Shown here: one piece after another, positions 4,895 through 64,000 of the stretch | Position numbering within the stretch: position 1 is the stretch's first letter | How the letters are laid out: every line of letters starts with the position of its first letter | Assembly: GCA_006503475.1 (NCBI GenBank) | Contig: RSEH01000175.1 | Span: 1 to 64,000, forward strand | Length of the DNA: 64,000 nucleotides | Direction: 5' to 3' | Source of the DNA: Stentor roeselii | Lineage: Eukaryota > Ciliophora > Heterotrichea > Heterotrichida > Stentoridae | Notes under the pieces: model-generated | What the model saw: only the letters and a program-made list of their open reading frames with translations | Databases searched by the model: none | Told to the model about the DNA's origin: nothing | Made by a program: the position numbers and the translations under genes

Positions 4895-7800
4895 CTAAGT
4901 TTCAGAAGTATTATTAGGATACCCTCCTTTCAGCTTAATCTGATCATCACAACTACTAATAAAAAAATATTTTCTCATCCTAAAACTTTCCAAAGTCAAA
5001 ATTTTCCTATTCCTTCTTTTATTAATAACTTTAGCCAAAGCTTCAGTCCAAGTCATAAACGACCCAAAAGTTCCCATAAACCCAACAAGTGATCCAAAAA
5101 GGCTTCCAACAAACAAAAAAGTAGTATATTTCAAAATTCTTTTGGTATTAAACACATTTTCACTAAGTTCCATTTGCACCCTGACGACTAAAAAAATCAA
5201 AGTGCTCATCCTAATTAAAACCTACGAATTCTGATCAACAACTGACCCGATTTTATGTGATTTTTTATCAACGACATGATAACCTGACTGAGGACTTTCC
5301 ACAAACTGTGAGTCTGAGTAAAACAACTGATTTTTTATTACTGAAGGAATAAATAAAAGCTCGAAAATACTTGCATCGAACCCTCGAAAGAGTTGTGTCT
5401 CGTTTGTTGGGTATAAAGGAATGAAGACTTCGCTTGTTTCTCCTGGAATTGAAGAACTGGAGATTACTTTTAAAGACATGTATGAACAATAAGCCATTAC
5501 GTTGTTGATGCCAAATTCAAAGTTACCGTCTGCGAGTAGTTGAAAGTCGTTTAACTTCAGGTGGAACTCACATGTTGAACCTGTTGAATTTAAGGATATA
5601 AATTTTTCTGTGTAGAGAATGTTTTTTTCTTTTTGGAAGTAAAATTCTTCACTGCAAATACCTGCGAATCCGTAGAAATTTAGAGAAAATTGTAATGAAT
5701 TGGATTTTATTGAGATTTTATTGGTGGCTAGAGGGGATAGCGTTTTGGATTCTATCAGGTTGTTTCCTTGGAAGGACATTAGACTGTAAGCTGTCGTGAA
5801 TGCTGCGAAAATAAAAAACATCAAAGTGAAGTAACCCCCGATGTATGTCTTTTTATAGACAACTGGGATGTTTAGTTCTTGTGAATGTCTGGAAGCAAAG
5901 AAATCAATAATCATCAACCTCTCTCTCAACCACTCACTAACCAAAATAGCACTTAACAAAAATAAAGCGACTCCCATAAAACTCCACAAAAATACTTGAT
6001 AAAAAGCGCTGATCTCTTCCGATCTTGACTGATAATCCTCAGGTTGTTTGCTAGTAGCAGTTAATTTAACAAGTCTTGGTAAAGGATAACTTGTTCCAAC
6101 AGGGCAAAAAGTCCCAGTGCTGCATTGTTTACAGTAAATTTTCCCAGTTTCATCATTAAAATACCCATACCCACAAGGAGTGCACATTTGCATAGTACAG
6201 GCTCCTTCATGTTCATAAAACGTGCCAGCAGGGCAAGGTTCACATCGATTATCAACTGAATAAAAGCCAGCTTTACAAGGAACACACTTATTTTTAACGA
6301 TTTCTCCATATCTGCAAGAAAGTTGAAATTTTTGGCCTTTGAATGAAATTTTGAATAAGTTGTTAGAATAAAATATTGAGGTCAAGAAACCACTTTTTGA
6401 ATAGGAGCCTCCGAAGAGGTAGAGATAATCACCGAGATGAGTCATTGTGTGACCTGTCAGCCAAAGGTTTTGGGGAATAGAAATTTCTTCAATTATTTCG
6501 CGATTTTTTAGGTTTATTGACATTATTTTTTTGTTTAGTTCTTGATCACGTCTGCCTGATGAAATATAAGTCATTGAATCGTGAATTTCTAGTGAGAAGT
6601 CGGATATGCTTAAATTTTCTTCTGTCCAATATTCAGATACAGATACAGATGCAGATACTGATGCAGATACAGAGTTAAAAAAATTTGTAATAGTAACAAG
6701 AAATACCACATCATTCGGTTCATTATTCATAAAAGTTCCTCCAACCAAATAAATCTTAACTCCCAACTCATAAGTTTCAAACACACATCGATAATTAACA
6801 ATCTTCAAAACATTTTCACCCTTAACCTGAATCTTAAACAACCTATCCTCATAAAAGTCATAAATCCACAAATCATTTAAAAATCCCTGAAAATCTTGCC
6901 CTCCAAAAATAATCGCTTTATAAGAATAAAGAAAAATGCAAGGATTATATCGAGAACTGAAACTTGACTGAGAATTTCCATAATTTGCCCAAGTACTTGA
7001 CTTAGGCTCGTAATAATAAAGGTCGTTGAACAGAGATGATCCTGATTTTCCTGAAGAAATTAAAAGACCTGAACCACTTATGAAGTAACTTCCCATATTT
7101 TCTCTTGGAGCTGGAAGACTTCCTGAAACTTCAACTGCTACCCATTTATTGGTACTCGCTTCAAATCTCCACATATCGTTTAAGGTCTCACCTGTTGAGG
7201 AAAGTCCACCGAAGATGTAAATTGAGTTGTTAAACGGCCAGCTGATGTGATTTTTACGACTTATTGGAAAATCTGCTGATTTGGAAAGATTTGAATAGAT
7301 ATTTGTCTGTAGGTTAAAAAGTTTTATTGAATTTTCATATGATTGGAAGGTCCTACCTAGGCCGAAGACTAGAGAATCTTGCATGAGTTGAATGGAACTT
7401 CCATATAAATACTCTGCATATGTCAGAAAGTTGCAAGAAAAGTTGAGAAGGTCGATTCTGAGAACTTCTGAATATTTTTTTATTCCTTGATACCCAAAAA
7501 ACACAAAAATTTTATCTTTATAAACTGCAGCTTTTTGTCCTTTTCTCGCACTCACCTCTTTACTTAATAAAACTTCTTCCCATACCTTTTCATTTAAATC
7601 AAATCTGAAAAGTTGACAAATTAATCTTCCTTCAACTGCTCCAAACAAGTAAAGTGAGTTATTATAAAACACTAAAGACCCTTCAGTCATATATCCTGGA
7701 GAATTTTTATAAAAACCTTGAACTTTTAATGTTTCTATATCAATTCTGTTTATACCTTACAAGTAAAAGTGCTGTGATATTCCTAAAATCGAGACACCTC

Positions 7801-9958: not shown

Positions 9959-12900
9959 ATGATTCTCATGTTGATATTCTTTATTCAAATATCCTCTCTC
10001 AAGATCGAACAACTACCAATCTCAAAATCCTCCCCTCCAAGATTGATACACACAACATCATCAGTAGTAAGCTCTTCCTCAAAAATTTACTTTTATGGAG
10101 GTGAAGAAGAAAGTGGTTTATTTTCATGTGCATTTTATTCATACGACATAGAATTAGACCACTGGAAAGAAATCATTTCTTACACTACTCTTTCCCCTCC
10201 TTGCCTATCACAATGTAAGTCTTTTATAACCTCAAACAACTCGTTTTTCATCATCTTTGGGAAGACTGCAAAAGGAATTTCTGAAAATATTTACGTTTAT
10301 GACTTGAATCTTTCGTATTGGAAATTTGGAAGTTTTTCAGGAGATTATATTTATCCGACGATTGATTCAGCTGAGTGTTTTTTTACTTTTGGAAAGAAAC
10401 GATACTTAGGATTGTATGGAGGAATCTTGGTTTCAGGGATATCACAGCACTTTTACTTGTAAGGGATAAACAGAATTGATACTGAAACTTTAGAAGTTCA
10501 AGCGTTTTATGAAAATTATCCGGGGAATATGACTGAAGGGTCTTTAGTGTTTTATAATGACTCTCTTTACTTATTTGGAGTTGTTGAAGGAAGATCAATT
10601 TGTCAACTTTTCAGATTTGATTTAACTGAAAAAACCTGGTACGAGATCAAAACAAGCTCTGACATACCAGCAAGAAAAGGTCATAAGTCTTCAGTCAACA
10701 AAAACTTCATGTTTGTCTTTTTCGGCTATAATTTAAACGAAAAATACTCAGAAATCTTAAGATTGGACTTAACACTACTCACCTGGTCTCTAATAAAAAA
10801 TGACATCGAATATTCATACGGAAGTACTTCTCAAACTTTTGAAAACTATGTAAGCTTCGGGCTTGGAAAGTCTCTGAAAAATTATGAAAATTCCATTATA
10901 CTCTTTTACTTCGAGTCAGAAAATTACACAGTTCACTCTGAATCTGCAGATTTTCCAGTAGGTAGAAAAAATCACATCAGCTGGGTTTACAACAACTCGA
11001 TTTTTATATTCGGAGGACTTTCTTCTTCTGGAGATACTCTTAATGATATGTGGAGATTTGATATTGATTCGGATTGTTGGGTGTATGTTAAAACGTATGG
11101 AAACATTCCAGCGAAGAGAGAGCTGATGGGCTACTTTTTTATAAACGGGTCAGGTTTAACCATTATGGGTGGAAAGTCTGGTAATACGATTTTTCAAGAA
11201 ATTTACTTTTATGAACCAAAAGCTAGTCTTTGGACCATGCTAAACGAAGGCAACAACATCACCTCTCGTTTCGACCCATGCATATTTTTCTATTCCTTCA
11301 AAATTCTGATTTTCGGAGGTCAAAACTTCGAAGAAAACTTAAACGATATGTGGATTTACGATTTCTCATCAGCGACCTTCACCCAAATAGAACTAAAATA
11401 TAAAAACCATTTAAGCATCGCAAACTATAAATGTGCATTTAAATCTGAGGGTCTATTAATTTCACTACATTTAATCGGCGGCACTGATTCAAGCAACGAA
11501 CCAAGCAAGGAAATAATTCAAATCACTATCAAAAACATCGAATCCAAGCCGCTAAACGGATCAGTTTCTTCAAACAACTCAGAAAACCTTTTATCATTAA
11601 AAGACTTTTCAATATCTCTCGAAAATTCAACACTATTCATTTTCGGAGGTAAAAGAAACCAAGAAGTATCAAAATTCATTCACTGTTACGACCTAGTCAA
11701 TAAAAAAATAATCCGCTCGATTCTCCTTCCAGAATCACTGTGGGTTGCAGGGCACTCATTAGTCCAACTCGGTCAAAGTTTTTACCTTTTCGGAGGAATC
11801 CATTCTCCAAGTGGATTCCAAACCTCTGATGTAGTTTCAAATGAACTTTACCAGATTTCATTCAACGAAGAGCCGATATTTTTGACTTGTAAATTCGGGA
11901 TGATTATAGAAGGTCGATGCCAACCTTGTCCTCCTGGTTTTTACAGTATTTCAAATGATTGCCTTCCTTGTCCTAATGGAACTTTTTATCAATACAGAGG
12001 AGCTTGTGAGATTCAGATGTGCACTCCTTGTCAATTTGGAGAGTTTAATGATGAAGAAGGTAAAACTTTCTGTAAAATTTGTAGAACTGGATTAGAATGT
12101 CCTTTGGGCTCATCTGTGCCTCTTGAAAAAAGTAAGAATTTAACTGTTTTTAGTAAACAACCTGGGGATTATTTACCTAAAGATACTGCACTTGAAGATT
12201 TGTATTTCATGCTTTTGTGGATTTTTGGAGCTTTGGCTTTTGTTTTACTTTTTCTTGTGATTTTCTGGAAACGGACCAGGAGTAAGTTTTTAAGAATTGA
12301 TCAATTTGTCACTCAACACTCTCAAGAATTGAATGTTCCTGTGATTTACAGGAAAACTGTGATTGGAGGGTATTTTACTGTCATTTTTTTGCTTTTCGCT
12401 GTGATTACTTCGGTTTACACCCTAATAGCTTATTTAGATGACAATATTTCTGAGTCAAAATCATTAGTCCCTTTAATATCAGTCAAAGATGATATAGTTT
12501 CAAGTTTTTTTTTTATAAACTTCACTTTTTACAACTTAATTGGTGAATGTAAGGAAAATGATACTTTTTGGATAAATTCCTCAATCTCATTTAAAACCAT
12601 TTCATTTACAGTGAAAAAAGAAGGAACCAACTGCCAAGCATTGATAAAATATGAAGATTTCCTTTTATCAAATAATGGGAAAATTAGCTTCAGCTTTCAA
12701 AACATCAGATACTACTGTTCACATATCTCTGTTAATTTAGCATCTTCTTCTTCAATCCCTGATCAAAACAGCGAGATTTTCATTCCTTTATACCCAAATG
12801 ACAGAACACATGTATTTCGAGGTTTTATTCCAAGTAAATTCAAAGTTTTACTCCTTCCATCAGTAAGAAAAACTCAGGTTTTTTACTCAGACTCATCGTC

Positions 12901-21000: not shown

Positions 21001-24000
21001 GAATGTATCTCGAAGAAGATGTAGAGGTAATTTAACTCTTTGAGGACTGGTGATAAGGAATCGGGGTCATTTTCTGATAAGTTTTTAAGAATTTGTAAGT
21101 AATTTTGAATATTTTCTAGAATTGGTACCAAGAATTTTTTTCCTTCATGATATTTTTTATGTATAAATCCAATAATTTTACTGAGATCTTTAGCTTTAGG
21201 TAAGAGTTTACCTCTGATCAAGTCAATGTATTTATAGATTATCATTATGACTTTCAATATGAATGGCAAAATATCTGTTAAAACCTTTTTCATTTTAAAG
21301 TGACTAGAAATGCAATTATTGATAAATTCTAATAATCCTGAGTTTAAATCATCTCTTGTTAAATACTCATCATTCAAATAAACATTCATCAGAAAGTCCA
21401 GCAGTGAAAGATGAACTTCATTGATACTAGGAGGTGAAGATATTTTCAACAACTTATAAACTTCATCTAAAGGAATAATTCTTTGGCACTTGTTTCTACT
21501 GAGTTTAAATCCATAAGCAGCATACCCACATTTGGCCAAGACTCGAATAAGGACTGCATGATAAAGGCAAGGATTGTCTTTTTCTCCATCACCTACAAAA
21601 TCACTATCAAAGTCAAACTTTTTATTTTTCATGAAAAGAAGTGTGTCAGTCTCGTCATTTTTCGTCAACGCTGACAAGATAAGCCTCTGAAGATGTGCGA
21701 TGGGCTCATTGTTTATCATTATCACTGTATCATAAAACTGTAAAAATTCAGGTTTTCGTCCTTCATGCAAAATCATTTCTTTAAATATCAAAATCAGTCT
21801 TTCATCGATTTTATTGCAAAGTTCAACATTTTTCTTAAAAATTTCACAAATTAAATCAATCTGGCCCATTTTCACCCTCATTGTTCTAAGAAGGACTTCA
21901 AGACTTTCATAGACCAAAAACTGGTTTTTTCTATTTTCCATAACGAAAATCGTAAGAGTTTTGAAACATTCTTGGAAAACTTCAGTTAAAAGAGCCTTTG
22001 CTTTTACTTCTGAATCTTTTTTAGGAGTTTCAGGCAAATCTTCAAGAATTGGAAAGCCGAGACTGATGAACTTGATAACATATAAATGAAAGTTTAGATA
22101 TCTTAACATTCCTTGTCTTTCAGGGTTAATTTTTGAATCATTCATGAAGACCATGCCTTTGATTTTTTTGAGAATTTCAAGGCATTGGTTGAGGTTATTT
22201 AAATTTATTTTGTTAGAACTTGGCTTTTGTTTCCAGTAACTGCAGATTACAAGAGCTTGATCTGAAAAGTACTTAAAGGTCGATAAGTGCTCTTTTGCTT
22301 CTAAATAAATATCTCCGTCGGTTTTGTGGATCATAAATGTTATTTTTTTTAAGTTTTTTATCATTTCCTTTCGTTGACTGAACATTCTGAGAACTATTCC
22401 AAGGATTTTTGTTTGGAACTTGTAGTTCTTGGTTGTTACAAAGAGATGGAGAAGGTTTTCGAATATATTTGGAATGGTTGAAATTAAGTGCTTTACGGAA
22501 GGTGAGTGGAATTTTTGGAAAGTGCTGTTTTCATCTGGATCTTGATTTTCAGGGTTTATGAGAGGTGGGATTAGTTTTTGGATGTCGAATGAGATTTTTT
22601 TCTCTAGGTCTTCATTGTTTTCTCTGTTTTCACTGTTGTCAGCTCTGGCTTTGGCCTGTCCTTCATCCATAAACCATTTAATGACGTTACTGATCAGAAA
22701 GTCCTGCCTGAGATCAATGGCATGAAAAAGCAGGTCACATAATTCAAGTTTACACTTGATTTCAATATTTTCTACTTCCGACTGATCAGTAGACCTAAAA
22801 GTATGATACTTCAAAAAATGCCTAAGTCCTTCAGAGAACCTTCTAAAAGGGTCATCCGCATTAGTTTTTAATTGTTTTTCTTTATTTTTCGCTTTTTCAT
22901 GAAAATCTTGAAGATTTCCTTTGACTTCCTTATTATTATTGATCAAATTTTGAATATTATAAAACAAGATAATATTAGCCCCATGCAACAATTCATCAAT
23001 ATCGCCTTCATCATGTCCCTTATCATTCGAAATAACTTCAAAGTTGATCAACAAATTAACAGCCTTCAACATCTGCAATAACAAAAAATTAAACTCAGGA
23101 ATAACAATTTTTCTAATATTTCTAATAAGTTCCACTTTAAATTCATAAATCGGAGAATTTTTAAACTCTCCATCTTTTTCTTCAAAAATGATCTTCGGAG
23201 CACTTTCATTTTTAATCAAAACTGTTTTTTTCTTAGCCAAATAATTACTCATTGAACTTCCCAGATCTTTGATGGTATGTCTCTGAAAAATCAGTTCACG
23301 ATGTTTCTTGCTCGAATTCAAAGCCCTTATAAGTTCAGGTTTTCTTACAGCGACTCTAGGAGAAGCGTCAACATGCATATTTACCATCATCTGCAAGAAA
23401 GCCGCTCGGATTTCAGTTGAAAGTCTGACTTCCCAGATATTCGCCTTGAGGACGTCGATTGGAAACCATTTGCTGATCGAGGCTTTACACGCCTCGTTTC
23501 TGCCTTTGCAAAGATTAGCGAAAAGTTGAATCATATTGATAAAGTAAGATATTTCATCTTTATAGATCTCTTTAACAGTGCCATCACTTTCAAAGCATTC
23601 CACAAGTGCAACATTCATCTCAGTATATTTTTCTTTCTCCTTCTCCAAATTTTTCCCTAATTCCATGACTTTATGTTGAAAAACAACAAAAAGTTTCTTT
23701 TCATCATTTTCTAAAGAAGTAGCAATGATTCCTTTATTATAAGTCTGTGGATTAAGAAACAGTTTTTCATGAATCGAGTTCTGATTGACAGTGATGCCAA
23801 CATCATCACAAGCGCAGATATCGCTCAAGAATTCAATAAGCCGTGGTTTACGATCACGAAAGAACTTCTAAATAACTCTTACCCTTAACAGCCAGATGTA
23901 ATGTTCGATGACGGAAGCCCCTGCCCTTCCCAATTGAACAGCGATTGACTTTTCTTCAAGACAAGACATAAGATCTTCATTATTCATCAGAACTGACTTC

Positions 24001-45810: not shown

Positions 45811-45913
45811 ATTGAGTAGTGGGCTGTTCTTTTGGAATACGAAATATTTTTTTAGATATAATATTGAGTGTGGACTGTTCTTATGGAATACGAAATATTT
45901 TTTTAGATATAAT
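45811..45913 (+). repeat. 52-bp tandem duplication in a 5' flank
   Basis: Copy 1 (45811-45862) and copy 2 (45863-45913) are nearly identical and end just before the hydrolase ATG. Each includes GGAATACGAAATA followed by a T-tract and AGATATAAT. The duplication lies in the promoter or leader region. The frame happens to stay open through it, but only by using a TTG start. Confidence 0.8.
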
Positions 45914-45919
45914 TTTGAT

Positions 45920-46880: not shown

Positions 46881-49800
46881 ATGATAGGTATTCTGGTGAT
46901 TTTAGCTTCTTTATCAGAAGTTAGGTCAAGTTATGTTTATTTCTATTCTTTCTCTTATGTATTCGTTAAATAGCCTTCAGATACCAGTGGGACCTTCTAT
47001 GTTAATGCAAAACTCTATACTGGAGTGATTCCTATATGGTCAAGTGGGGTATGGATTACTTTGTCTCTATGGTCAAATAGTGCAATGACAGGAACCCTTT
47101 CGATGCAAACTGACGGTTGGGGCGAAGCTAAATTTACAGATGTGCGATCAGTTTACCGTGGAGATTGGTACATGATGGCGTCATCTCCGGGATACGATAC
47201 AGCTTACACAGCATGGTTCACAATAGCCACAGGAAACACCGCCTTTTCCAGCATATCATTTGCATTAAGTCAATCAACAGTAGGCGAATACGTTTCCTTC
47301 TCAGTAACCACAACAGTAAAAGACAGTTCTGGCAACGCGATGTTGAATCCATGTCCAATGTCAATAAGTGAGTCAGGAGGAAGTACTTTATACGGAAGTG
47401 CAACATCATTGACAATAACAGGTTCAACATCATTTACATTTTACTTTACCACAGCAGGTTCTAAGACCTTATCAGCATCATGTTATACAACAGGTACCTA
47501 CCCAATGACAGTAAGTAAGAATCAACTGACGATAACAAGTATTTCTCCAGTAATTTCTAAACAGCCTTCGAACAGTTTGACTCCATTTTCAGTGGAAGTA
47601 AGAGTTTATTACTACGGAACTACCACCTTAGTGACAAGCTACGGTCCTTACTCAGTGACTTTATCGTTAAATCCTTCAGGGACTTTGAGTGGGACATTGA
47701 CTGGCACAACTTCTTCAGGGATTGTTTCCTTTTCTAACCTTTACATTTTAAGTAGAAATACTTTCACAGTAGACGCTTCTTCTACAGACCTTCTAACAGG
47801 GAGCAGTTCAACGTTTTTCTGCACGAATTATGTGAAGACGATGAGTGTTTCTATTGACAATTCTTTACCTACAGTTCTTTTTAATCATGTTGTTACTGTT
47901 TTATTATATGGAGATGATGGAGCAGCTTTTACAGGTTCAGTCGCTGTGAGTATTTCGAGCACTTCTTTGACTGGTACTTTAAGTTTAACTACTTCGAGTG
48001 GAACAGCGACTTTTAGCTCTGTTTATTTCACGTTGTCTGGAAGTGAAATTATTACTGCTTCGGTTCCAGCTTCTAGTCCTTACTCTGCAGTTTCAGCGAC
48101 TCATACTGTGACGGTTAACCAACCTAGACTAAAGATTACAGGAACTCTTGTAAGAGATATATAGCCTACTAATACGATTACTTCATTCTCTCCTACTGTC
48201 ACTGTTTGGAACCATGCTGAAAATACTGTGTTAACGGTTAGAGGACCTTTTAGTATTACTCTTTCTTTCAGCCCTACTTGCACGGTTACTGGGACTCTCA
48301 CTGCAAACACTGTTTCAGGAGTAGCTAGCTTTACTGGAATTACTGCAAAAACTGGAGGTACTTTTACTCTTACAGCAGCATATGGAAGTTTTGTAAGTGG
48401 GACAGCTTCTATGACACTTTCAACATATGTCGGGAGTATCCAACTGAGTTCTTCGACAATGTCCCCGACTATGAATTTTGATTTTACAATTACAAGCACA
48501 CTACTAGCAATCGACTCTAGTGTTTATACTCCAGTGATCACGGTAACACTTTCAGGAGTTGGACTGGCTGGAACAATTCAAGGGAACACTGTCTCAGGAT
48601 CAGTTACCCTTACTGTGTATGGAACAACAGTTAATAGTGCCATGGTAATTACAGCGACTATTCCTGCATCTTCCCCATTTGTAGGAGTTAGTTCTTCAAT
48701 TACTGTAAATGTTTTGATTATGATACTAAAGATCACATCTTTTACAGCAGTAAGAAATAAGTAGCCAACCACCACATTGACTCCATTATCACTTACAGTA
48801 GGAGTTTACGATAACTCAGGTGTCAATGCGGAAATAGTACGGGGTCCTTATTCAGTAAGTCTTTCCTTTTCTCCAACTGTTTCAGCAGTCGGAACAACAT
48901 CATCAAGTACATCAAGTGGATTTTATACTTTTTCAGGAATTACATTAGCAAGTACAGGGTCATATGTTGTTACAGTATCAAGTTCAGGAATAACATCAGC
49001 ATCTACAGCAAGTTTTTCTTTGTCAACATATGTGAGTCAAATAACACTCTCATCCTCAAACTTGACCCCAACAGTGAATTTTGCCCATACAATAACAGCG
49101 ACATTGAAATCAGCAGATGGACTCACTTATACAGGAGCTTGCTCACTAACATGTTCAGCTCTTAATCTTGGAGCAGGATCAGTGGCTGGATCAAATAACC
49201 TTGGAACGGCTACTTTTTCGATATACTTTACTATTGCAGGTGCAGTGACAATCACCGTTAGTGCTCCAGCCTTTAACGGATATTCAGCAGTAAGCGCTAC
49301 AATAATTGAGACTGTTCAAGCTCCACTACTCAAGATCACTACTTTCACTGCAGTAATATCAAAATAGCCCACAACTTCTTTAACAACTTTTTCGATAACA
49401 GTCGGTGTTTATGATAGTACTGGAGCGACTCTAGAGAATCTTCGAGGACCATATACGATAAGCTTAAGCCTCAGTCCTGTTGGCACTTTTTCTGCAACTG
49501 TTAGTGGTTCAACTTCATCTGGACAATTCACATTAACTGGACTCAGAATTCTTTCAGCTGGAACTTTTACATTAACTGCAAGTTCCACAAGTATGACATC
49601 AGCAACAAGTTCAAGTTTTACAGTGACAAATTATGTTTATTCAATGACTTTAGCTACTTCAACGACTTCACCTTCAGTTAACTTTTCGTTTACAATAACT
49701 GCAACTTTGAAAGGAGAAGACAACAATGCATATATTGGGTCTTGTTCTCTATCACTATCTAGTACTGGAGTTTCTGGAATAGTTTCTGCCTCGAATTCAG

Positions 49801-52800
49801 CCGGAACCGCAATATTCAGCATTTATTATTCATCTATTGGCTCTAAATCTATAACAGTAACAGCTCCAGTATCAGGTTCTTACCCGTCTGTTGCGGCTTC
49901 ATTATCATCAGTGGTTGTTTTAATCCAAATCCTAAAAATTACTTCATTCACAGCTGTAATCTTTACTTAGCCAGCAAACAGTCTTGTCTCCTTTTCATTA
50001 ACAGTAGGTGTTTATGATAACTCAGGTGTAACAGTGGAAACACTCAGAGGACCATATTCTATTTCTCTCTCTTTAAGTCCTTCAGGTAGTTTTGCAGGTA
50101 CAACTACATTGAACACAGCCTCCGGAACTGTAAATTTTTCTGGTCTACGAGTCTTATCAGCTGGAACATTGACCATTGTTGCAGTAAGTACAGGAATCAC
50201 TCAGGCATCAACTTCAGCATTTGTAAATATAAACTACGCATTTACTGTTACTTGCTCAACAAGTAATGCAACCCCTTCAGTGAACTTTGACTTTACAATC
50301 ACAGCAACTATAAAAGGTGAGGACAATAATATCTTCACAGGCACTTGCGCAGCAACCCTAACCGAAACATCAGGCCAAACCGTCTATGGAACCACAAGTC
50401 TTTCAAACACTTCAGGAACGCTAAATTTCGTAATCTACTTAGGCACTGCAGGAACTAAAATAATAAGAGTAACCTGCGCAGCTATAGGCAGCAGTCCCGC
50501 AGTTTACGGAGATGTATCAGTGAACATTCTTTCATTAACCCTAAAGATAACAAGTGTATCTCCAGTGGTATTCTCTAAATAGCCAACCAACTCTTTGATA
50601 GCATTTTCAGTTTCAGTAGGAGTTTATAACAACCCTGGAACAATTGTAGAAAGTTTAAGAGGGCCTTACACAGTTGCTTTAAGTTTGACTTCGACAGGGA
50701 CTGTCTCAGGGACTTCTATTTTGGGGACTGTTTCGATTAATACTGCTTCTGGACTAGTCACTTTTTCTTCATTGAGGATCTTGTCGTTGGGGTCTTTTAC
50801 TGTAACTGCAACTAGCGCTAATATAGTGACTGGGACTTATTCAGGGATTTCTACTGTCAACTATGCCTTTTCTATGACTCTTGTAAGTTCTATTGCTACT
50901 CCTACTAGATTTTTTGATTTTACTGTGACTGCTAGTATTAAGGGTGAAGATACTTTTGCATTTATTGGGTCTTGTGCTGCTTATTTGACAGAAAATGGAG
51001 GGACTAGTATTTTAGGAACTACTAGTTTGACTACTACAACCGGCACAGCAGCATTCAGCATTTACTTCACAGTCCTAGGAAGCAAAACAATAACCTGCAC
51101 CTGCCCAGCAGTAGGTTCAAGTCCAGGTACAAGTGCAACAGTTTCAGTGACAGTTCTAATCCCATATCTAAAAGTGAGTCTTTTTTCCCCAATCGTAAAA
51201 AAAATATAGCCAACAACAAGTTTGACAACTTTTTCAATTTCAATTCAAGTCTACGACAATACAAGGACTTATTTAGAAAACGTTCACGGCCCTCATTCAA
51301 TATCTTTAATCCTGGTACCAACAGGGACTCTTTATGGAACAACAGTTGCAAGTACTTCTGCAGGGACAGCTTCATTCACAGGACTTCGAATTTTATCAGC
51401 TGGAAGTTTGAGTGTGCAGGCTTCTTGCACTAATATGATTTCAGCGACATCTGTACAGACTACTGTTGTGAATTATGCGTTTCAAGTCACTTTGGCTAGC
51501 AGTACTTTGAGTCCTTCGGTTAACTTTTTATTTACATTGACTGTTACTATTAAGGGGGAGGATTTGAATTTGTTTAAGGCCGCATGCACTGTCACACTCA
51601 CCGGTACTAGCTTGGCTGGTGGACTTACTGGAACTACTTCTACTGGGTTGTTAACTTTGCAGCCTTATTTCACGGCTACTGGCAGTAAAACTATTACTGC
51701 TACATGTCCAGCATCAGGATCAAGTCCAGCAGTCTCAGGACAACTAACATTTAACGTCTTATTACAAATGCTAAAAATCACCTCATTTACACCAGTATTA
51801 TCCAATTAGCCAACCAACAGTCTATCACAATTTTCTCTAACATTAGGAATCTACGATAATTCAGGAGTCTCAGTTGAAAACAATGTAGGAATATATTCAA
51901 TAACCTTAACAATAAGTCCAACTGCATCAGTTTCAGGTGTATGGAATGGAAACACAGCAAGTGGGGTTTTGACCTTATCAGGCTTAAGAATATTAGGAAG
52001 AGGAACATTTACATTATCAGTCATTTCTTCAGGACTAACTTCAGTAAGTACATCAAGCTTCAGTGTATATAACTACGTCTATACAATAACTTTAACCAGT
52101 TCAAGCTTGACACCCACAGCTTATTTCTCTTTCACAGTCACAGCTGTACTTAAAGGTGAGGATAGTCAAAGTTTCACTGGCACATGCGCTTTGACATTGT
52201 CTGAAACTTCGGGTTCTACTATCTTTGGAACGAGTTCTTCTACTGTTACTACTGGATCAAGTAGTTATTCTATTTACTTTTCTGCTATAGGAGTTAAAAA
52301 TCTTAAAGCCTTTTGCCCCGCATCAGAGTTGAGCCCTAGTGTTGAAGGAACCCTGTCAATAACAGTTCAAAGTTTAATCCTCAAATTTATTTCATTAAAC
52401 CCAACAGTAACATTCAAACAGCCTTCCACAAGTTTATCCTCATTTTCAGTAACATTAGGAGTCTACAACAGTTTAGGAACAATAATCGAATCAACAAGAA
52501 GATCCTATCTGATAACTTTATCATTATCTGGAAGTGGAATATTTTCAGGTATCATTGAAGGTACAACGACTTCAGGTCAACTTACCCTAAGTGGATTACG
52601 AGTGTTATCCTCCGGTTCATTCAGCCTATCAGCGAGTTGTCCAGATGCAACTTCAGCTATCTACGCGTCAACACTGACAGTGACCAATTACGTCTATTCA
52701 ATGAGCCTCAGCACATCATCAGGAAGCTATTCAAGCAACTTTGAGTTCACTCTTGTCGTGACTCTTAAAGGTGAAGATCAAAACTTGTACCCAGGAAGCT

Positions 52801-55800
52801 GTCTCGTGACTTTAAGTGAACTTAATGGATCTACTTTATCTGGAACTAACTCGGGTTATGTTAATGCTGGGACTGGGTATTTCAATTTGTGGTTCGTTGA
52901 TTCGGGAAATAAAAGGGTACAGGCTTCGTGTTCTTCAACTGGAACTTCAATACCTGTTACTAGTTCTATTCAGCTTTCAATTCTTCAGAATATTTTGAAA
53001 GTTGTTGCGATTTCGCCGATTGTAAATTTTATGTAGCCTACTTCTAGTTCTGATGTTTTTTCGGTCACTGTCTCTGTTTATGATAATTCTGGAACAAATG
53101 TTGAAACTGTCAAAGGGCCTCATTCAATTTCAATTTATTTGCAACCTTCAGGTAATATGATTGGAACACTTTCTAGAACAACATCTGCTGGATCTGCCGT
53201 TTTTTCTGGATTGCAAATAAAATCTCAGGGAATGTTTAATATTATTGCCTCGTCCACTGGAAAAGTGTCTGGTATGTCGATCAGCTTTTCAGTCGCTAAT
53301 TCAATTGGATCTATTGTATTAACCTCTTCAACATTGAGCCCAACTTCAGGTTTCAGTTTCGAGGTCACTGCAACTATCAAAGGAGAAGATGGAAATTTAT
53401 ATGGCTCTGATGTTACCGTAGCTTTATCTGCCACATCTGGAGAGCTGATAAGAGGCTCATTATACAAAATCACATCATCATCAGTTACAACTTTTCAAAT
53501 TTCATTCATGAGTTCAGGTAACAAAGTCCTCCGAGCATCAGTAAGCAGTGTTTATACCGATTTATCCCTTACAGTGCGTTCATCAGTTCTAAAAATCACT
53601 CTAAACCAATCAGTAATCCTTATTCAGCCAACAACTACCAGGACAAGTTTCCAATTAACAGTTCAAGTCAAAGATACTGTGAACGGTTCTGTTGAATCTG
53701 TGAACGGTCCTTATAGTATAAGTCTGGCGTTTTCTCCTTCAGCAGTGTATGAAGGGGTGTTGACAGGATTGACTCAAAGTGGTTCAGTCACTTTTTCTAA
53801 CTTGAGGGTGTTGAGTGCAGGAACATTTTCAGTCATTGCAAGTTCAAGTGGTATCACTGCTGCTTCAGTCTCGATCGGTCCTTTAAGTACTTTTCCGTCT
53901 CGATTAGCTATGGTGACAAGTAGTTCTAATCCTAGTGTCAACTTTCCGTTTACATTGACAGTTACAATTTACGCAGAAGACTCAACTCTCTATACAAGCC
54001 CTGCGACACTAACATTAACAAGTGACTCTCCATTTATAGGGTCAACAACGATAGAAAACACATCCGGAACAAATGTATTCACACTAAGATTCCAAAGTGC
54101 AGGTGGTAAATACTTGCAAGTGACTTCAGGGTCATTATCAACCAATATAATCGTGACAGTCCTTTCATTAGTTTTCAAGATTACCAGCTTTTCACCTGTA
54201 TTTGACAAACAGCCCGCTCTTAGCACTACAAGTTTTTCAGTAACTGTTGGAGTTTTCGATAACTCTGGAACTATAGTGGAATCTTTGTATGGAGTTTATA
54301 CTGCAGAACTGCTACTTGACCCAACTGGAAAAATTTTAGGAACTGTGAGCAAGTCTACAACTGCAGGATATGCTACTTTTACTGGACTTCGAGTATTGTC
54401 CTCTGGAAGCTTTTCATTAAAAGTGCAGTCTTCTGGGTTATTAAGTGTTTCGAGTGTTTCTAGTTCACAGTTCTTGGTGGCCAATTTTCCCTATTCCTTA
54501 TCAATCGATTCATCATCCCAAACCCCATCAGTAAACTTTCCGATCACTCTTTCAATCTCAATATACGGAGAAGACCAATCCCTCTTCCTCGGATCCTCAT
54601 CCCTAACCTTATCAGACCCAACCAATACAATCCGAGGTCAACTAACATCATCATCAACAACCGGAAAATCATCCTTATTAATCTACTTTTCCTCATCAGG
54701 AAGTAAAACAATTCAATTAACAGTAAACTCAATCACATCAAGCCTTACCTTTTCAGTTCAACCATTAAAGTTAAAACTCTCAAAACTTTCCCCTCTTGTA
54801 TTTTTTATTCAGCCTTCTTTCACCCTGGACCCTTTCGAAGTCGAGGTCTGGGTGACTGACAATTCAGGGAATTCATTGGAAGGAACATACGGCAGTTACA
54901 CAGTCAGCTTATCTTTAAGTCCTTCAGGAAGCTTGTCAGGTCCCGTCTCAGTCATCGCTGTTGCAGGCATTGCAAGGTTCACTAGTCTAAGAATTCTCTC
55001 AAATGGAAACTTTGCAATAGTCGCTTCTTGTTCAGGCTTTTCAAGTGTGAGCTCGAATGTGATGAGCATCACGAACACTGTTTACAGTTTGACAGGAAGC
55101 AGTAGTACTTTAAGACCATCGAGTTATTTTTCATTTGTTGTCACTGTTAATATTTTAAATGAAGCTGGAAGTAACTTTGTTGGGAATCGACTGGTTCAGG
55201 TTGTTGAAGTTGGAGGAAGCAGTGTTTTTGGAGTTAATAGTTTGAGTACAAGTAATGGACTTGCGAGTTTAAAGATTTACTTGAAGGATACAGGAAGTAA
55301 GACTTTAAGATGTGTTTGTTCGACTGTTACTTTTGATATTTCTATTGTGGTTGATTCTTCGGTTCTTAAAGTTGAGTTGATAACTGCGGGAGTAATTTTT
55401 ATTCAGCCGAGTACGAGTAATGATGTTTTTTCTGTCAAGGTCTCAGTGTTTGATGCGGCAGGGATTAACATGGAGGGGAATTATGGACCGCATTATATAA
55501 GTTTGGCGCTTTCGGGTTCTGGACTATTGAATTCGACACTTTCTCAGATGACTTCATCAGGAACTACAACTTTTAATTATTTGAGAGTACTGTCATCAGG
55601 AGTATTCACTTTAACAGCTTCGACTATTAGTACTGGGATTTCTTCTGGTACTGTTCAACTCTCGGCAGTGAATAACTTTTTGTTTAAGGTCGAGGCGACA
55701 AGCGCCTCGATTGTTTCTATGTATTTCACCTTGACAGTGCAGATTAGATTACTTGGAGAAGACCTCCAACTTTTCTTGACTAGCACTTTAGTGACGATGA

Positions 55801-58800
55801 CCAGTGCCTCGTCTTTCCAAGGCACAAGTCAACTTTCAATAACAAACGGGATCGGTACTTTTTCAATATACTTTGAATCTGCAGGTTCCAAATCACTACA
55901 AATTTCATCAGGATCTATTTCCACAGATCTATCTATCGAAGTCCAGGCATGTCGACTAATGATAACTTCATTTACTGCAGTAATTTTTAATCAGCCATCA
56001 AATAGTGAGATGACCTTTTCCTTAACAGTGAGCGTCTTTGATCAAGCTGCTTCGATGATTGAACAAACTCGCGGTGTTCATTCAATTTCTTTGAAGTTAG
56101 TCCCTGATGGGCAAATTGTTGGAAATGTCCAGGGTGTTACTTCTGCTGGGGTTATAACCTTTACTGGGCTTAGAGTCACTAGTGCTGGAATGTTTAGTAT
56201 TTTGGCTGAAAGGACTGGGTTCTTAAGTGATTCTACTGCTCAGTTTAATGTGGTGAATTTTCCTTTTCAATTGCAAACTGTTAGTGACTCGAATCGGGTT
56301 AGCTGCTTTTTTGAGTTTTATTTTCAAGTCGTTGTTTTTGCGGAAGATGGCAGAAGGTTTTTATCGTCGGTTAATGTTTATATTGACCAGATTGCCTCGA
56401 TGACATCGACTAGTGGAAGTTATAATGTTGTTACAAATGATGGGTCAGCAGATTTCACAGTATTATTCTCAACAAGCGGAACCAAAACACTAACATCTCG
56501 AGTAAATTCAATCCTCATATCCCTCCAACTTGAAGTAACAAACCTAAAGTTAAAATTCGAGACCCAGCCATTATCAGTACCCTCTAATCAGGCCTTACAA
56601 AGCACAGATATTTTTTCAATATCAATCTCAATCTACGACGATACTTTATCGACAATCGAATCTCAAAGGTCTCAATTCGAAGTATCCCTTTCCCTAAGCA
56701 ACAACGGAGTATTCTTCGGAACAACCACGTCTTACACGTCTTCAGGACAAGCGACTTTCACAGGTCTTCGCATCTTATCAGGTGGTTCTTTCATCATAAC
56801 AGTCTTCAGTTCCAGCTCTGAAGTGACCTCTGCGCAGACCTCTTCAATTTCAGTGCAAAACTTTGTTTATTCCATAAGCCACTCGAGTCCTTCAACTGTT
56901 TCTGTCAATTTTGAGTTCACTTTAACTGTTTTCGTCAAAGGAGAAGATGGACTTCCTTTTAATGATTTTGCGAATATTGTTGTTACTGGTGTTAGTGGAT
57001 TAGAAGGAATGGTTAGTCAAGAGACTAGTGTTGGAAGTGCAGATTTTTTACTTTATTTTACGAGGTCGGGAAATTTTGAGTTTTGGATTAGCTGTTATGG
57101 AAAAAGTCAACAGGTTTCTGTTGTGGCTTTGAAGAATTCTTTGAGGATTGTGAGTGTGGTGCCGAGTGTAATTTTTAAGTAGGTGTTGACTAGTGCAGAT
57201 ACTTTTACAGTAACAGTAGAAGTGCGAAACAATGAAGGTACACTAAAAGAAAGCCTAAGAGGACCCTACACAATATCTCTCTCCCTCGAACCTCAAGGCA
57301 CTCTATCAGGTGTATCATCCATAACCACTTCACAAGGAATCGCCATCTTCTCAAACCTTCGAATCCTAAGCCAAGGAGTCTTTTCCCTCAAGGCCTCATC
57401 GCCAGACTCCCTGTCATCAATCTCCTCCTCAATCTCAAATACAAACTCCTTATTCACTCTAGTCCTCTCAGCCTTCACATTAACCCCCAGCCAAAACTTC
57501 GACCTTCAAATATCAGTTGAACTTCATTCAGAAGACGCCCTTCTTTTCACCCAATCATCAACAATAACAGTCTCCGAGAGCTCAAATCAACCATTTTCAG
57601 GGTTAACTTCAAAGACAACATCAACAGGTTTAACAACTTTTTCATTATCATTCTCAACCCTCGGAGTGAAGTCACTTCTCTTCGAATGCAACTCAATTCA
57701 AGAGTCGTTAACAATAACAGTTGTTTCATTGAAATTACAGATCTTGTCAGTTTCGCCTTATGTAAAAATTAAATAGCCCAGGACTAGTCTTGAGACTTTT
57801 GATGTGGAAGTTGGAGTTTATGATAATGATTTAGGGACTTTAGAGAGTAGTCAAAGTTATGTGATTAACTTGCAAACTGAACCTGCTGGAGTCTTATCTG
57901 ATAGTCAATCTGTTTCTACTGTTAATGGAAAAGCGAGATTCTTGGGGATTAGGGTCTTGTCTGCTGGAAAATTTAAGATTAAGGCTTTTTGTTCTGCTGC
58001 TTCACCGGCTTTGTCTTTGGAATTTCAGGTTGTGAATTTTCTTCATGTTATTGAAAGTAAGGATAGTAGTCCGAGCGTCTCGGCTGGGTTTTGGATTGAT
58101 CTTGGATTTTGGCTTAAGGGTGAAGACTTGCAAAGTTTTAGTGGTGAGGTGAGTGTTAGTTTGAATTGTGAGCAGAACTTTCTAGGGGATAGATTGAAGA
58201 GTTGTAGTCTTGGGGAGTGCTTGTTTAGGGTTAAGTTTTTGACTTCGGGAAGCAAGTCCATGTCAATCACTTCAGGTTCAATAAGTTCCACTCTAACAAT
58301 AACAGTACTCCAAAAAAAACTTCAATTTGGCTCCTTACTCCTTGTAATTTCTAATCAGCCCAGTCAAAGCACTCAACTATTCCAAGTGCAAGTACTAATA
58401 AAAGACAACAACGGAATCACCTTAGAATCTGAAGGAAACAACTACGAAATAATTCTCTCATTATCCAGTCCAGGTCTTTTATCAGGTCTTTCATCAAAGT
58501 TAGCTTCATCAGGTTCAGTATTATTCGAAAACCTTCGCGTATTATCAAGTGGTTCATTTACTTTAACAGCAAGTTTACCAGATACAATATCCTCAACATC
58601 CAATTCTTTTTCAGTAACAAACTTCCCTCACATCCTCGATCTTTCCTTTTCTCCTTCCCAAGTGACAGCCTTCTTCGAGTTCACTTTAACAGCGACAGTG
58701 AAAGGAGAAGACTTTTCTTTATTCTCAGGTCTTTGCACAGTGAAAATTTCTGAATCAGAAGATTTAGAAGGGTCATTAGAAAACTCAGGAAATTCAGGAA

Positions 58801-61800
58801 TATTCATTTTTTCACTGATGATAAAAAAATCAGGGAACAAGCAAATCCAAGTTTCAATCGGGTCGATTTTTTCTTTAATCAATATTCAAGTTTCTCAGGC
58901 AGTGCTTAAATTAACTTCTCAAGTGCCAAGCGTATTTTTTACTTAGTCCTTGACGAGTACAGACGAGTTCTCAGTGACTATCGGGATCTACGACGCTTTA
59001 GGTGTTAATCTCGAGATTTCACAGAAAACCCATCAAGTCAATCTTTCTCTTTCATCATCTGGAACCCTTCTCGGAGTTCTTTCTCTTCAAACCACGGCAG
59101 GAGTTGCTTTATTTTCAAATTTAAGAATCCTTACAAAAGGTCTCTTCAGTTTAATCGCGTCAAGTTCAGACATGGTGCCTTGTTCATCATCAGAAATCAC
59201 TGTAGAAAGTACTTTATTTGCCCTTAGCTTGACAGTAAATCCTTCTTCTCCAACAATGAACTTTAATTTCTTGGTGACTGTTGAAACTAGCACTGAAGAC
59301 TTGAAGTTATTTTTAGAAACGGCTTCTGTGACTGTGAATATTTTGCAAAATGGACTTGTTATTGCTCAGAGCAATGTTTTGACTAGTTTTGGAAGTGGAA
59401 GTCTTTTGATGCATGTTGGAATTGGTGGAAGGATTGAAATTAAAGCGAGTTCTGGAAATGTTGAGAAAAGTGTCTTTGTTGATTTGATGAAACCGAAGTT
59501 GAAAATCGTGGAAATTAGTCCTTGGGTAATGATTATTTAGCCTTTATTTACTTCAGAGGTTTTTAGTGTTAGAGTCGCTGTTTATAACAGTGAAGTTAAT
59601 AAGGTTGAATCTGAGTATGGACCTTATTCTGTTGTTTTATCGGTTGTGGGAGATGGGTTTGATGCTGCACTTGATGGAAATCCGATTTCGGTTAGTGTTG
59701 CAGGATTCGCTAGTTTTAATGCAATTAGGATTAAAAAACAGGGAACTGCTCGTGTAAAGGTATCAGCGGATTTACTTGAATCTGCTGAGTCTGAATTGAT
59801 TACTATTAAAAATGTCCTACACTCATTTACAGTATCATCATCCGATCCAACCCCAAGTGTAAACTTTTACTTCTCCCTAACAGTGAGCCTAATGACAGAA
59901 GAAGGTACTTTATACGAGCCATCCACTCCTCTATCAATTCTCGATTCAACAAATACCTTAAAAGGTTCAAAGTCCTCCTCCTCATCCAAAGGCATCTCAA
60001 TCTTCGACATATATTTCACCTCATCCGGTCTAAAAACACTCCAACTAAAAAGCCCAACAATAACATTTCCCTATTCAATCGAAATTTTCCCTCTAAAGCT
60101 TCAACTATCGCCTCCAGTTCCACCAGTAATCTCTTCATAGCCACAATCAAGTAAAGACAAATTTTCAATAAAAGTATCAATTTTCGACAATTCCCTTCAA
60201 TTCAAAGAAACTCGTTTCGGCGAATACGAAATAACCCTTTCACTTCCCAGTCCTTTCAAAATCTCAGGAATTTCTTCAAAAACAAGTAAAAACGGTGAAG
60301 TCGACTTCATCGACATAAGAATTCTTTCATCAGGTCTTTTTAATCTCCAAGCAGAAAGTCCAGGACTTATTTCAGGATCAAGTATTGAGTTAGAAGTTTT
60401 CAACTTTCCATTTAAAATAACTCCGAAGCTTCCTGAAGGTAGATTCAGTCCTTTCTTCGATATTCAAGTCCAGGTGGAGGTCTTTGGAGAGGACTTGAAT
60501 CTCTTCTCTCAAAGTGCGACTGTTCAGATCTCTGAAAAACGTGCTGAGAACTTTTTAGGTGATAAAAGTGTTCAAGTTGTAAACGGCAGAGGAACTGCGC
60601 AGTTTTACTTTACCAGTTCAGGAAGTAAGACTTTGAGATTTGATCTTGCAGGAGTCACTGGCAGTTGTGAGTTGAACATTGAGAAACTTGTGGTTAAAAT
60701 CACTTCGGTTAGTCCTTTTGTAAGATTTATTTAGCCGAAAAGTAGTAGTGATGCTTTTGATGTGGTTGTTAAGGTCATGAATGTGCAGGAGGAGGATGTG
60801 GAAAGTATTAATGGAGCTTATCTTGTTACTTTGCAACTTAGTTCAAATGGAACTTTTTCAGGGACTTTTACAGGAACTACTGTTTTCGGGTCGATTGAAT
60901 TCAATGGACTTAGAATTTTGTCTAATGGAAATTTTTCTATTGTTCCTGTGTCTTCTGGGATTACATCTAAACAATTTGATGGACTTTCTGTTAGGAATTC
61001 GGTTAAAAGACTTGACTTTTATTTACCGAGGAATGGAAAAGCTGGGTTTATGGTTGATTTGAAAGTTGAGGTTTTTGGAGATGATCTGATACTTTATAAG
61101 AATCTGGTTGAAGTGGAAATTTTTTCGAATTATTCTGCAGTTGGGGGAACTTTGGTTAAGGCGACTAACTCTGGGTCTTTGAATTTTTCGATTTATTTTG
61201 ATGAGGTTGGATTTTTCTCAGTTTCAGCGAAATGTGAAGGTTTTTATCAGTCCGGCTCCATAACAATAACAAAAAACATAAACCCAGACCCTCTCTGCTA
61301 CGACCCTAAATCCACAGAAAAATGTTTAACCTGCATAGAAAACGCAAAACCACAGAAAGGAAAATGCGAGTGCATCGAGAACAGTCATTTTTCCGACACC
61401 TTAAAAACCTGTGTCTGCAATTCAGGTTATTCTCTAATCCAAGGATTCTGCATAAAATGCGGAAACTACTTCAAAAAATCTGAAATCTCAGCAGAACTTC
61501 TCTCAGACTACAAGTCAATAAAAGTCTCATTCAACCGAACAGTTTCTCAAACAATTTTCCCATCATGTGCCTCATTTATTTCCTTATCAACATGCGACAA
61601 CTTCACCTGCATCTGGGAAAATTCAAGAGCCCTGCTGATCCAAGTCAACTGCGAACCTTTGCCTTCAACTGTAGAAGTCGACGCGGTTCTCATTCAAGCT
61701 TTTGGTTCTCTCTGCACTCAAGAAATCGAGCAGCTTAAACTTTCCTTAATCTTACCTAAAACTGTATCACCTCCAAAAACCTGCCTTTCAGCCCCTGAGA

Positions 61801-64000
61801 GTTTTTTCACTAAATGTGGAGAAGGGTACTTGTCAGTATTTTCAAATTGCCCTGATCCTTATGTCAGCTATTCTTGGAAACTTAAAACAAGTCCTGAAAA
61901 TCAAGACCTTCAAAATCGAGTTCTTTCTTTTAAGGAAAATTTTTTGAATATTTTGAGTTTTGAACTGTTTGAAGGGACTTTTGTTTTTACTTTGGTTGCA
62001 AGACATCGACTTTTTAATTTAATGAGTCAGGATTCGAGGACTGTCAAGGTGTTTAATATGACCGGATTCACTGTGGAAATGACTTCAGGGAACTTTGCGA
62101 CTGTTAAAAGAAGTCAAAGTTTTAGAACTTCGACTGTTGTGAAAAGTTGTGGAGATGATGATTGGAGCTTTCAGTTGAAGTATCTTGGAAAGGAGAAAAT
62201 TGATTTGAAATCTGTTGGGTTTTTTAGGGGAAATATTGAAATTCCACCTTTTGTTTTGGAAACTGGGAAGAATTATAGCTTTGGAATTGAGGTTAAGGGA
62301 AAGCAGGGAGGGAGTAGTTCTGCTGGGTTGAATTTATTTGTTTTGATGAGTGATTTGGTTGTTGAGTTTTCTAGGTCTTCTGGAGAAGTTTCGGTTGATT
62401 CTGAGTTTAGAATAAGTGCGATTGTTAGTGATCCTGATAACCCCAAAGAGTCTTTTACATATTCCTGGACCTGTCTTCAAGGTTCAGACATCTGCAAAGA
62501 CAAAGACGGTTATTACCTAGTATGGAACCAAAACTCAAAAGACCTAATAATATCAAAAGGCAAACTTATCCCAGAAAATCTTTATTTCATATCCCTATCC
62601 ACATCAAGTCCCTCTAAAACTTCAACAAAAACCATCCAAATCAAAGGATCATCAAAATCCCCAGGTCAAGTTCTACTAAAACCCCTTTCATCCAAGATCA
62701 ACCCAGGAGTCCTTTTCCGAATTTCAGCAGAAATCCAGTCAATCAAATCTCTAACATTCAACTGGAAACTTTCAAGTGAAGGACAAGAACTTCTTCTCGA
62801 TTCAAGCTATTCTTATCTATCCCTTCCTCAAAATTTCCTGAAATTCGGAATTGTTTACACATTAACTTTAGAAATTCTTGCAAAGACAGAAGGAATCTCA
62901 TCATTTATTTTAATCAGTACAAATGATGCACCTTTTTGCAGTGGTATTGAAATAGAAGATAAGGAAAGTTACTCGGTTATCAATGGTTTTGGATGTTTTG
63001 ATAAAGATCTGGATAATCCTCTTTTGTATCAGTTCAGTGTGAGTGGAGAAGGAAAAAGTGTTTATTTAAATTCGCCTGTTTTAGCACCTTTGATTAAAAA
63101 ACGACTTCCGGACTTTACTCAACAAGTCAAGGTCAAAGTTTGTGATTCACTTGGACTTTGCTCGGAGTTCAAAGAAAACTATAAAAAATCAAGGGTTTTA
63201 GAAGAGTTAAAAGATGCAGACTATTTACTACTTTTCTTGAATGAGATTAAAAATTATGATGATTTACCTGTCAGTTTTATTAACTTTATTGGAAAAGTCA
63301 CGGAATTTGGCACTTTTAAAGAAATTTTCTTATATTTTGAAGAGTACTTCAAGGAAGTCAGCAGAGATTCTTATAATCTTGACCTGCTTATCAGTTGTTT
63401 AGATATTTTTTTCTCGTGTGACAAGAACTTTATTTCAAAAACAGCGAATTTGACTTTTTCTTTGATTTTTGACTTTCTTTCAGAGATGAAGACAGAAATC
63501 AGTGAATCTCAAGGCGAGTCTTTAATGGAATTTCTTTCAAATCTGAAAAATTCTTTAGAACTTCAAAAGATTTTCACCTTTTCTCATGAAATCACTAAAC
63601 TATCTCTAAAAAACTCTTATCCAAACATGAAAACTATTCACACCTCAGAAGTCTTTCTCTTCACATCTCGAGGTCATCAAAGTTTTTACTCAAGTAAAAC
63701 TTTCTCAAATTCAATTCTTTCTCTAAACTTTCCTGAAATGAACGAATTTCCCTCTTCAGAAATTTTAGACATTGAGTTGATTTTCTTTGAGTTGAATGAA
63801 AAAATTTATATTTCTTTAAAGATTTATTCAGAGGTTGATTATGAGAACTATACTTTGAAGTTAAACAACAGGTCGATGGCGAGTTTTTATTTAACAAGCC
63901 CGATTCAAGTGATTTTAAAGCGAGTTTCAAGTGATTCGATCAAAGACTGCATTGGACTGGGCAGTTCTGGCTGGGAACAAGAAATCTGCAGTTCAGACTC
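46881..64000 (+). CDS. Giant multi-module REJ/polycystin-like surface protein (3' end outside window)
   Basis: Exon 1 (46881-46958) encodes a signal peptide (MIGILVILASLS). Then 23 exons of about 570-612 nt each encode one module of about 190-204 residues, and a final long exon starts at 60735. All 24 introns are 15 nt and phase 0. Each module has two beta-sandwich-like halves: one with VGVYDN, RGPYSISLSLSP, SGT...FSGLRILSAGTF, and one with TPSVNFSFTITATLKGEDN and GTATFSIYFTSAGSKTIT, ending LKITSFTAV before the intron. The first module is divergent. The last exon carries a final module, a Cys-rich segment (codons near 61288-61480) and a REJ-type region (near 61500-63200: CPDPYVSYSWKL, SDPDNPKESFTYSWTC). 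It stays open to the window edge, where CIGLGSSGWEQEICSS may begin a GPS site. About 5,586 residues are encoded here. Membrane helices would be expected downstream. Confidence 0.87.
46959..60734 (+). other. Array of 24 phase-0 15-nt introns, one per module
   Basis: Introns start at 46959, 47550, 48150, 48750, 49353, 49956, 50568, 51195, 51795, 52407, 53022, 53613, 54198, 54798, 55392, 55980, 56577, 57168, 57762, 58344, 58932, 59526, 60126 and 60720, each 15 nt. All begin GTA. Fifteen end in TAG and nine in CAG (47550, 52407, 53613, 54198, 54798, 55392, 55980, 56577, 58344). All start-to-start distances (582-627) are multiples of three. TAG introns break the unspliced frame; CAG introns read through as five codons (V-x-x-x-Q). 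Confidence 0.9.
46974..60719 (+). repeat. 23 tandem exon-modules of about 0.6 kb
   Basis: Each unit is one exon plus one 15-nt intron. Protein consensus pieces recur at fixed spacing (GVYDNSG, SLSPSG, GLRILS, TPSVNF, KGED, FSIYF, GSKTI). DNA identity between units is only moderate, so the expansion is old or diversified, although neighbouring units in 48-52 kb look closest. An additional partial module follows in the last exon. Confidence 0.88.

Follow-up and report, generated by a model that had tools for sequence, protein, structure and literature searches.

A putative 15-nucleotide intron precedes every module of a giant gene in the heterotrich ciliate Stentor roeselii

Does the run of short, broken reading frames at the end of our window stand for a series of separate genes, or for one gene interrupted by very small introns? 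The window comprises the initial 64,000 nucleotides of the 100,365-base contig RSEH01000175.1 of Stentor roeselii (labelled C88 below; assembly GCA_006503475.1, searched here as 44.4 Mb in 522 contigs). From an ATG at position 46,881 of the plus strand to position 64,000 the frame meets 15 stops, all of them TAG and each the end of a 15-nucleotide element of the form GTA-N9-TAG. When these and nine similar elements ending in CAG are removed, 24 x 15 nucleotides in all, a single frame without internal stop runs past the window edge to a TAG at 64,830-64,832 and encodes 5,863 amino acids. Across 17.9 kb the frame is never shifted and, before the final TAG, meets stops at the intron sites only; that last TAG has ACT, not GTA, twelve bases upstream. 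The apparent run of broken frames is very probably one intact ciliate gene for a 5,863-residue protein, whose window part spans 46881..64000 (+).

The initial annotation had proposed one gene with one module per exon, phase-0 introns of 15 nucleotides and growth by duplication of exon and intron together, and the motif statistics, paralogues and module tree described below bear this out. Its 24 elements, one per module and spaced 582-627 nucleotides apart, reappear in our in-frame motif listing; its chain of about 5,586 residues, open at the edge, is what (17,120 - 360)/3 gives, and the contig beyond the window closes that chain 832 nucleotides further on. It also expected about 15 unrelated proteins if splicing were ignored: the fragmentation is real, with a count of 13 plus-strand open reading frames (ORFs) of at least 150 amino acids, which serves as a warning for annotation. 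We hold it to be highly probable that 46,881-64,832 is a single protein-coding gene of heterotrich type with standard-code stops, probably for a secreted or surface protein, in which every module follows a spliced phase-0 spliceosomal intron of 15 nucleotides and an ancestral unit has multiplied together with its intron. Direct observations are the motif and where it lies, its occurrence in paralogues, its clean absence from some modules, and the module tree; splicing itself is a prediction from sequence, well supported by the motif and the paralogues. The intron design would be a 5' GTA, a branch A at position 10 and a 3' YAG, in phase 0 before every module, and a single ancestral unit of intron plus module exon would have multiplied within and between genes, the intron being copied along.

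The gene opens with exon 1 (46881..46958, +), which holds the start codon and a segment resembling a signal peptide. The putative introns follow on the same strand, each taken from the in-frame motif listing and ending in TAG unless CAG is stated: intron 1 (GTATTCGTTAAATAG, 46959..46973), intron 2 (GTAATTTCTAAACAG, 47550..47564, CAG), intron 3 (GTAAGAGATATATAG, 48150..48164), intron 4 (GTAAGAAATAAGTAG, 48750..48764), intron 5 (GTAATATCAAAATAG, 49353..49367), intron 6 (GTAATCTTTACTTAG, 49956..49970), intron 7 (GTATTCTCTAAATAG, 50568..50582), intron 8 (GTAAAAAAAATATAG, 51195..51209), intron 9 (GTATTATCCAATTAG, 51795..51809), intron 10 (GTAACATTCAAACAG, 52407..52421, CAG), intron 11 (GTAAATTTTATGTAG, 53022..53036), intron 12 (GTAATCCTTATTCAG, 53613..53627, CAG), intron 13 (GTATTTGACAAACAG, 54198..54212, CAG), intron 14 (GTATTTTTTATTCAG, 54798..54812, CAG), intron 15 (GTAATTTTTATTCAG, 55392..55406, CAG), intron 16 (GTAATTTTTAATCAG, 55980..55994, CAG), intron 17 (GTACCCTCTAATCAG, 56577..56591, CAG), intron 18 (GTAATTTTTAAGTAG, 57168..57182), intron 19 (GTAAAAATTAAATAG, 57762..57776), intron 20 (GTAATTTCTAATCAG, 58344..58358, CAG), intron 21 (GTATTTTTTACTTAG, 58932..58946), intron 22 (GTAATGATTATTTAG, 59526..59540), intron 23 (GTAATCTCTTCATAG, 60126..60140) and intron 24 (GTAAGATTTATTTAG, 60720..60734). 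All 24 are in phase 0, and 15 end in TAG and 9 in CAG. A looser pattern, GTA-N10-AG, returns 26 in-frame 15-mers; the additional ones at 52146 (ending in GAG) and 56535 (AAG) lie off the module starts and were excluded.

The composition of these elements is that of introns rather than codons. GTA begins 24 of 24, against 16.7% of GTA among the valine codons of the spliced gene, and the inner nine nucleotides are 84-85% AT, against 62% in coding sequence. Position 10 is occupied by A in 23 of 24, all nine CAG-ended copies among them; the exception is intron 23. The full motif, GTA-N6-A-N2-[T/C]AG, has 23 matches in 46,881-64,832, all in phase 0, and none in the other phases or on the reverse strand. 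Over both strands of the window, GTA-N9-TAG occurs 33 times, against a shuffle mean of 18.3 and a maximum of 32 in 100 shuffles. Since related copies are not independent, the P values of the donor, branch-site and AT comparisons are descriptive only.

Is the element confined to this gene? A genome search with one module gave at least 122 matches, spread over 18 contigs, with 150 of 162 candidates scored. Module starts were examined on 13 of the 18 contigs (C253, C195, C4, C179 and C470 were left out), partial and edge matches being dropped. In 84 of 102 module starts, spread over nine contigs, a GT[A/G]-N9-[T/C]AG 15-mer lies at the same codon, directly before the module. These 84 elements, which include those of the present gene, all differ in sequence; 55 end in TAG and 29 in CAG. 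Their length and YAG end are partly by construction, because the search pattern fixed both; GTA is found in 83 of 84 and A10, which lies outside the search pattern, in 82 of 84. The free positions show leanings, with A4 in 61 and T9 in 64 of the 84. When the remaining 18 starts were scanned for GT..AG elements of 13-17 nucleotides, no GTA..YAG element was seen nearby, and so no 16-nucleotide form either. In two modules the 15 nucleotides are cleanly absent: SGFTA joins PAHSL directly at C201:50874, and VSST joins PLYTN at C432:118318, as a spliced junction would be expected to look. All nine scored starts on C518, C275, C62 and C220 are intronless; C220 has six successive module matches, three of them complete enough to score. 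On C50, C490, C432 and C264 the final matched module is also intronless, and these final modules group together (97% in the Shimodaira-Hasegawa-like approximate likelihood ratio test, SH-aLRT). The starts at C506:9186 and C506:144506 are each the sole scored one in their stretch and bear the intron, with partial matches as neighbours; it is possible that C506 holds arrays of mixed intron-bearing and intronless modules.

A tree of 85 modules, which leaves out 17 modules added later, supports duplication of the unit. Mapping the introns on it, as the initial annotation had suggested, gave a divided answer: intron presence follows the tree, needing 6 changes where shuffles averaged 9.6 and 1 of 200 needed as few, whereas the T or C at intron position 13 carries no tree signal, although one was expected (22 changes, the shuffles averaging 21.3 and 142 of 200 needing no more). 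Near both ends of the arrays, modules of C50, C490 and C432 cluster by position; C88 and C201 have first modules that pair (98%). Arrays therefore appear to have been partly inherited whole by gene duplication and partly grown within genes. Since related intronless modules exist, the intron is not needed for array growth, and it is better viewed as a passenger of duplication than as its shown cause. Across the 75 introns of this tree set, identity at the nine variable positions averages 0.442, where column composition predicts 0.450; in the 24 pairs with exon identity of at least 0.5 it is slightly higher (0.50).

Could the CAG-ended copies be something other than introns? If only the TAG-ended copies were spliced, the CAG-ended ones might have been exonised and be translated. 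Retention of the latter would be harmless, none of 26 CAG copies having an in-frame stop, but shuffling predicts just 0.45 internal stops in this set, and A10 is kept in all 26. Other genes of the window also speak against exonisation. Seven candidate introns were found outside the giant gene, of which three were relied on (23882-, 10459+ and 7760-); the other four (12979+, 41361+, 5225- and 83686-) may be ordinary gene ends or chance. Two of the three, each 15 nucleotides long and in phase 2, end in CAG: that at 10459..10473 (+) lies between two ORFs, each with a match to Kelch models, and that at 7746..7760 (-) in an inverted Kelch paralogue, where only the larger of the two ORFs was domain-scanned. 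In each case retention leads to a stop after one codon, and removal fuses two long frames. The third, GTAAGAGTTATTTAG at 23868..23882 (-), is a 15-nucleotide intron of an IP3-receptor-like gene that joins an ORF with Ins145_P3_rec, MIR and RIH matches to one with matches to RIH and RIH_assoc. Genome-wide, the sequence GTAAGANTTATTCAG occurs 19 times against 0 for its reversed control, although some of these sites may be coding and one (C490:102335) lies within the module family; its TAG version occurs 34 times against 7. In this genome CAG very probably serves as a normal 3' splice site, and the 15 broken frames therefore count the T variants only. We consider exonisation of the CAG copies improbable.

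Alternatively, TAG might be read as glutamine, locally or generally, the frame being uninterrupted with V-x-x-x-Q at each module start. TAG and CAG do alternate at the site (15 and 9) in an otherwise open frame, and the lack of tree signal in the T/C state is what synonymous codons might show. Yet no TAG occurs elsewhere in the 5,863 codons, which include 158 for glutamine, and CAA, used for 118 of these 158, never appears at the site. The giant gene and at least three other ORFs of the window (1073-2338, 18009-23828 and 45812-46822) end in TAG. Four paralogous copies, of which C201 holds two and C264 and C50 a single one apiece, have an extra in-frame TAA or TGA inside the 15-mer, which recoding cannot repair; nor would it account for the modules that lack all 15 nucleotides, or for GTA in 24 of 24. 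Among 15 ORFs checked, the stops were 9 TAA, 5 TAG and 1 TGA, with the reservation that the TAG at 23868 is an intron end and that at 5222 may be one. The giant gene has no in-frame TGA among its 5,863 codons and 24 TGG. Stop usage and the lack of internal TGA thus indicate a code like that of Stentor, which uses the standard one (PMC9505925), and unlike that of Blepharisma stoltei, in which UGA encodes tryptophan (PMC9942806). Recoding is in our view very improbable.

Hardly any credence is left for a pseudogene or a row of separate genes in decay, to which the 15 breaks of the unspliced frame would point, given the absence of frameshifts and off-site stops, the conservation of the modules at the protein level and paralogues with the same anatomy. 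Equally implausible are internal eliminated sequences, germline segments excised from DNA instead of RNA: GTA..TAG does carry TA near both ends, but the second TA is missing from the 29 of 84 copies that end in CAG, excision from TA to TA would take out 11 nucleotides and shift the frame, and a branch A at position 10 is present.

Several points weigh against splicing before every module, descent from one unit or a surface location. Nine of the 24 copies are stop-free, so that retention there would merely add five residues, and the case for splicing them is the motif. One donor in the family is GTG (C432:118897) and two introns lack A10; a module at C490:104098, scored as intronless, is preceded by a GTA..AAG 15-mer with A10 present (GTAATTATCAAAAAG), possibly an AAG acceptor or a copy turned coding. 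Most intron-containing Stentor genes have a single intron, and for genes with more than eight, splicing at all sites is uncertain (PMC9505925). In the module tree most inner branches are weak (48 of 82 drawn open), so its details are unsure. Contrary to our expectation, intron similarity does not correlate with exon similarity (-0.03 over 2,775 pairs; 413 of 500 permutations as high), the variable positions being saturated, and the common descent of the introns is for this reason argued from position and not from sequence. Independent gain at each site would be compatible with the intron sequences, and is far less parsimonious than common descent. As regards location, the N-terminus stays below the hydropathy threshold, which three segments inside the array passed; this weakens the surface-protein reading, and because of it the signal peptide was judged by eye.

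How does an intron-per-module gene of this kind compare with what is known of ciliate introns? In Stentor coeruleus, 92.8% of 8,806 introns are reported to be 15 nucleotides long and 7.2% to have 16; the branch A occupies position 10 in 90.9% of them all, and the initial GUA is stringently conserved (PMC9505925); the introns of B. stoltei are predominantly of 15 and 16 bp (PMC9942806). The elements described here share the length (24 of 24), the GUA start, A10, the AG end, the AU-rich interior and Stentor-like standard stops, and differ from that description in that 24 of them sit in a single gene, always at the same point of the repeat. The initial annotation was right about the length of 15 nucleotides, which it called near-minimal and which is the ordinary one in heterotrichs.

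The leucine-rich repeat (LRR) arrays of Tetrahymena likewise represent a ciliate family grown by copying of exon plus intron with uniform intron phase, although there the exons are exactly 90 bp, encode LRRs and are mostly associated with phase 2, with introns that measure about 257 bp in the young genes of T. thermophila and about 50 bp in old ones (PMC6564038). The giant gene departs from these arrays in its module exons of 567-612 nucleotides, its introns of 15 nucleotides in phase 0 (24 of 24) and the lack of any LRR match. In the animal lineage, titin, fibronectin and collagens likewise encode each repeat in a single exon or several, bounded by introns of matching phase, and these introns are far longer. 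Tiny introns and expansion by exon units were thus already known in ciliates (PMC9505925; PMC6564038). What is new is their combination, in which a putative 15-nucleotide intron precedes each module of the giant gene and the majority of the examined modules of its relatives, with no trace of descent at its free positions; our literature search returned, among the matches listed, no description of the giant gene or of a per-repeat intron in a heterotrich. Introns of 15 nucleotides are normal for this group; two dozen in a gene, with free variation around one fixed design, are unusual.

These 24 homologously placed introns, with their paralogues, make the question of splicing beyond eight introns, left open in Stentor, directly testable, and the 84 sibling introns form a ready set for studying the requirements of the spliceosome at the lower limit of intron size. 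We may go one step further, in a proposal that we regard as rather unlikely: the family could amount to a saturation experiment of nature with a class of spliceosomal intron among the smallest known, in which one ancestral intron at one codon has given at least 84 diverged copies, the free positions keeping no trace of descent while length 15, GTA, A10 and YAG stayed fixed, and in which the stop-free CAG copies (29 of 84; 9 of 24 here) are tolerated or used as optional five-residue inserts, independent choices to retain or splice them diversifying one surface protein.

What protein would such a gene encode? The array of 24 modules, one per exon, covers 46974..61280 (+; we set the end of the last module), and the 23 exons between introns encode 189-204 amino acids each. 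Each module consists of two halves whose relationship hhalign supports (95.8%, E 8e-9, with halves cut and joined by us). The Pfam search for the module family gave only sub-cut-off or weak matches, and none for two stretches scanned: Big_1 (PF02369) matches 3 of 24 modules weakly, at best with E 7e-4 and 20 bits against a gathering cut-off of 34.9 bits, and no LRR is among the 15 families listed for the 24 modules at E up to 1. A profile search of the PDB gave one weak match, to an S-layer protein (4uid, E 0.0074). This weak Big_1 and S-layer similarity suggests that the module halves may be immunoglobulin-like sandwiches. Serine and threonine make up 31% of the first 4,700 residues.

The array is followed by a cysteine-containing C-terminal region (61281..64000, +), with three hydrophobic segments and a basic tail beyond the window, and hence possibly about three membrane segments. 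An extended surface or adhesion stalk would be a conceivable function. The C-terminal region has no Pfam match better than E 0.09. Its part at 61281-63998 matches 32 loci genome-wide, itself and 31 others, and some members of this family lie in uninterrupted frames of more than 3,000 amino acids (5,184 on C335). We considered the C335 frame as an intronless array of the same modules and rejected it, the 6,000 nucleotides upstream of the shared region giving no module match; the 3,600 nucleotides upstream of the match on C441 hold neither a module nor a long open frame.

The other genes of the window look eukaryotic and include the IP3-receptor-like gene, Kelch genes and a cyclic-nucleotide-gated channel. 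The first (18009-25718, -), interrupted by its 15-nucleotide intron, provides a clean positive control for intron calling. The Kelch genes form an inverted pair at 5222-8257 (-) and 9959-12982 (+), with matching CAG-ended phase-2 introns of 15 nucleotides; a second candidate pair in the same genes ends in TAG on one side (5225-) and in AAG on the other (12979+), which hints at AAG acceptors. The frame at 27297-33359 (+) runs uninterrupted for 2,020 amino acids, with four ion-channel and four cyclic-nucleotide-binding stretches, and looks like a cyclic-nucleotide-gated channel whose four subunits have been fused into a single chain.

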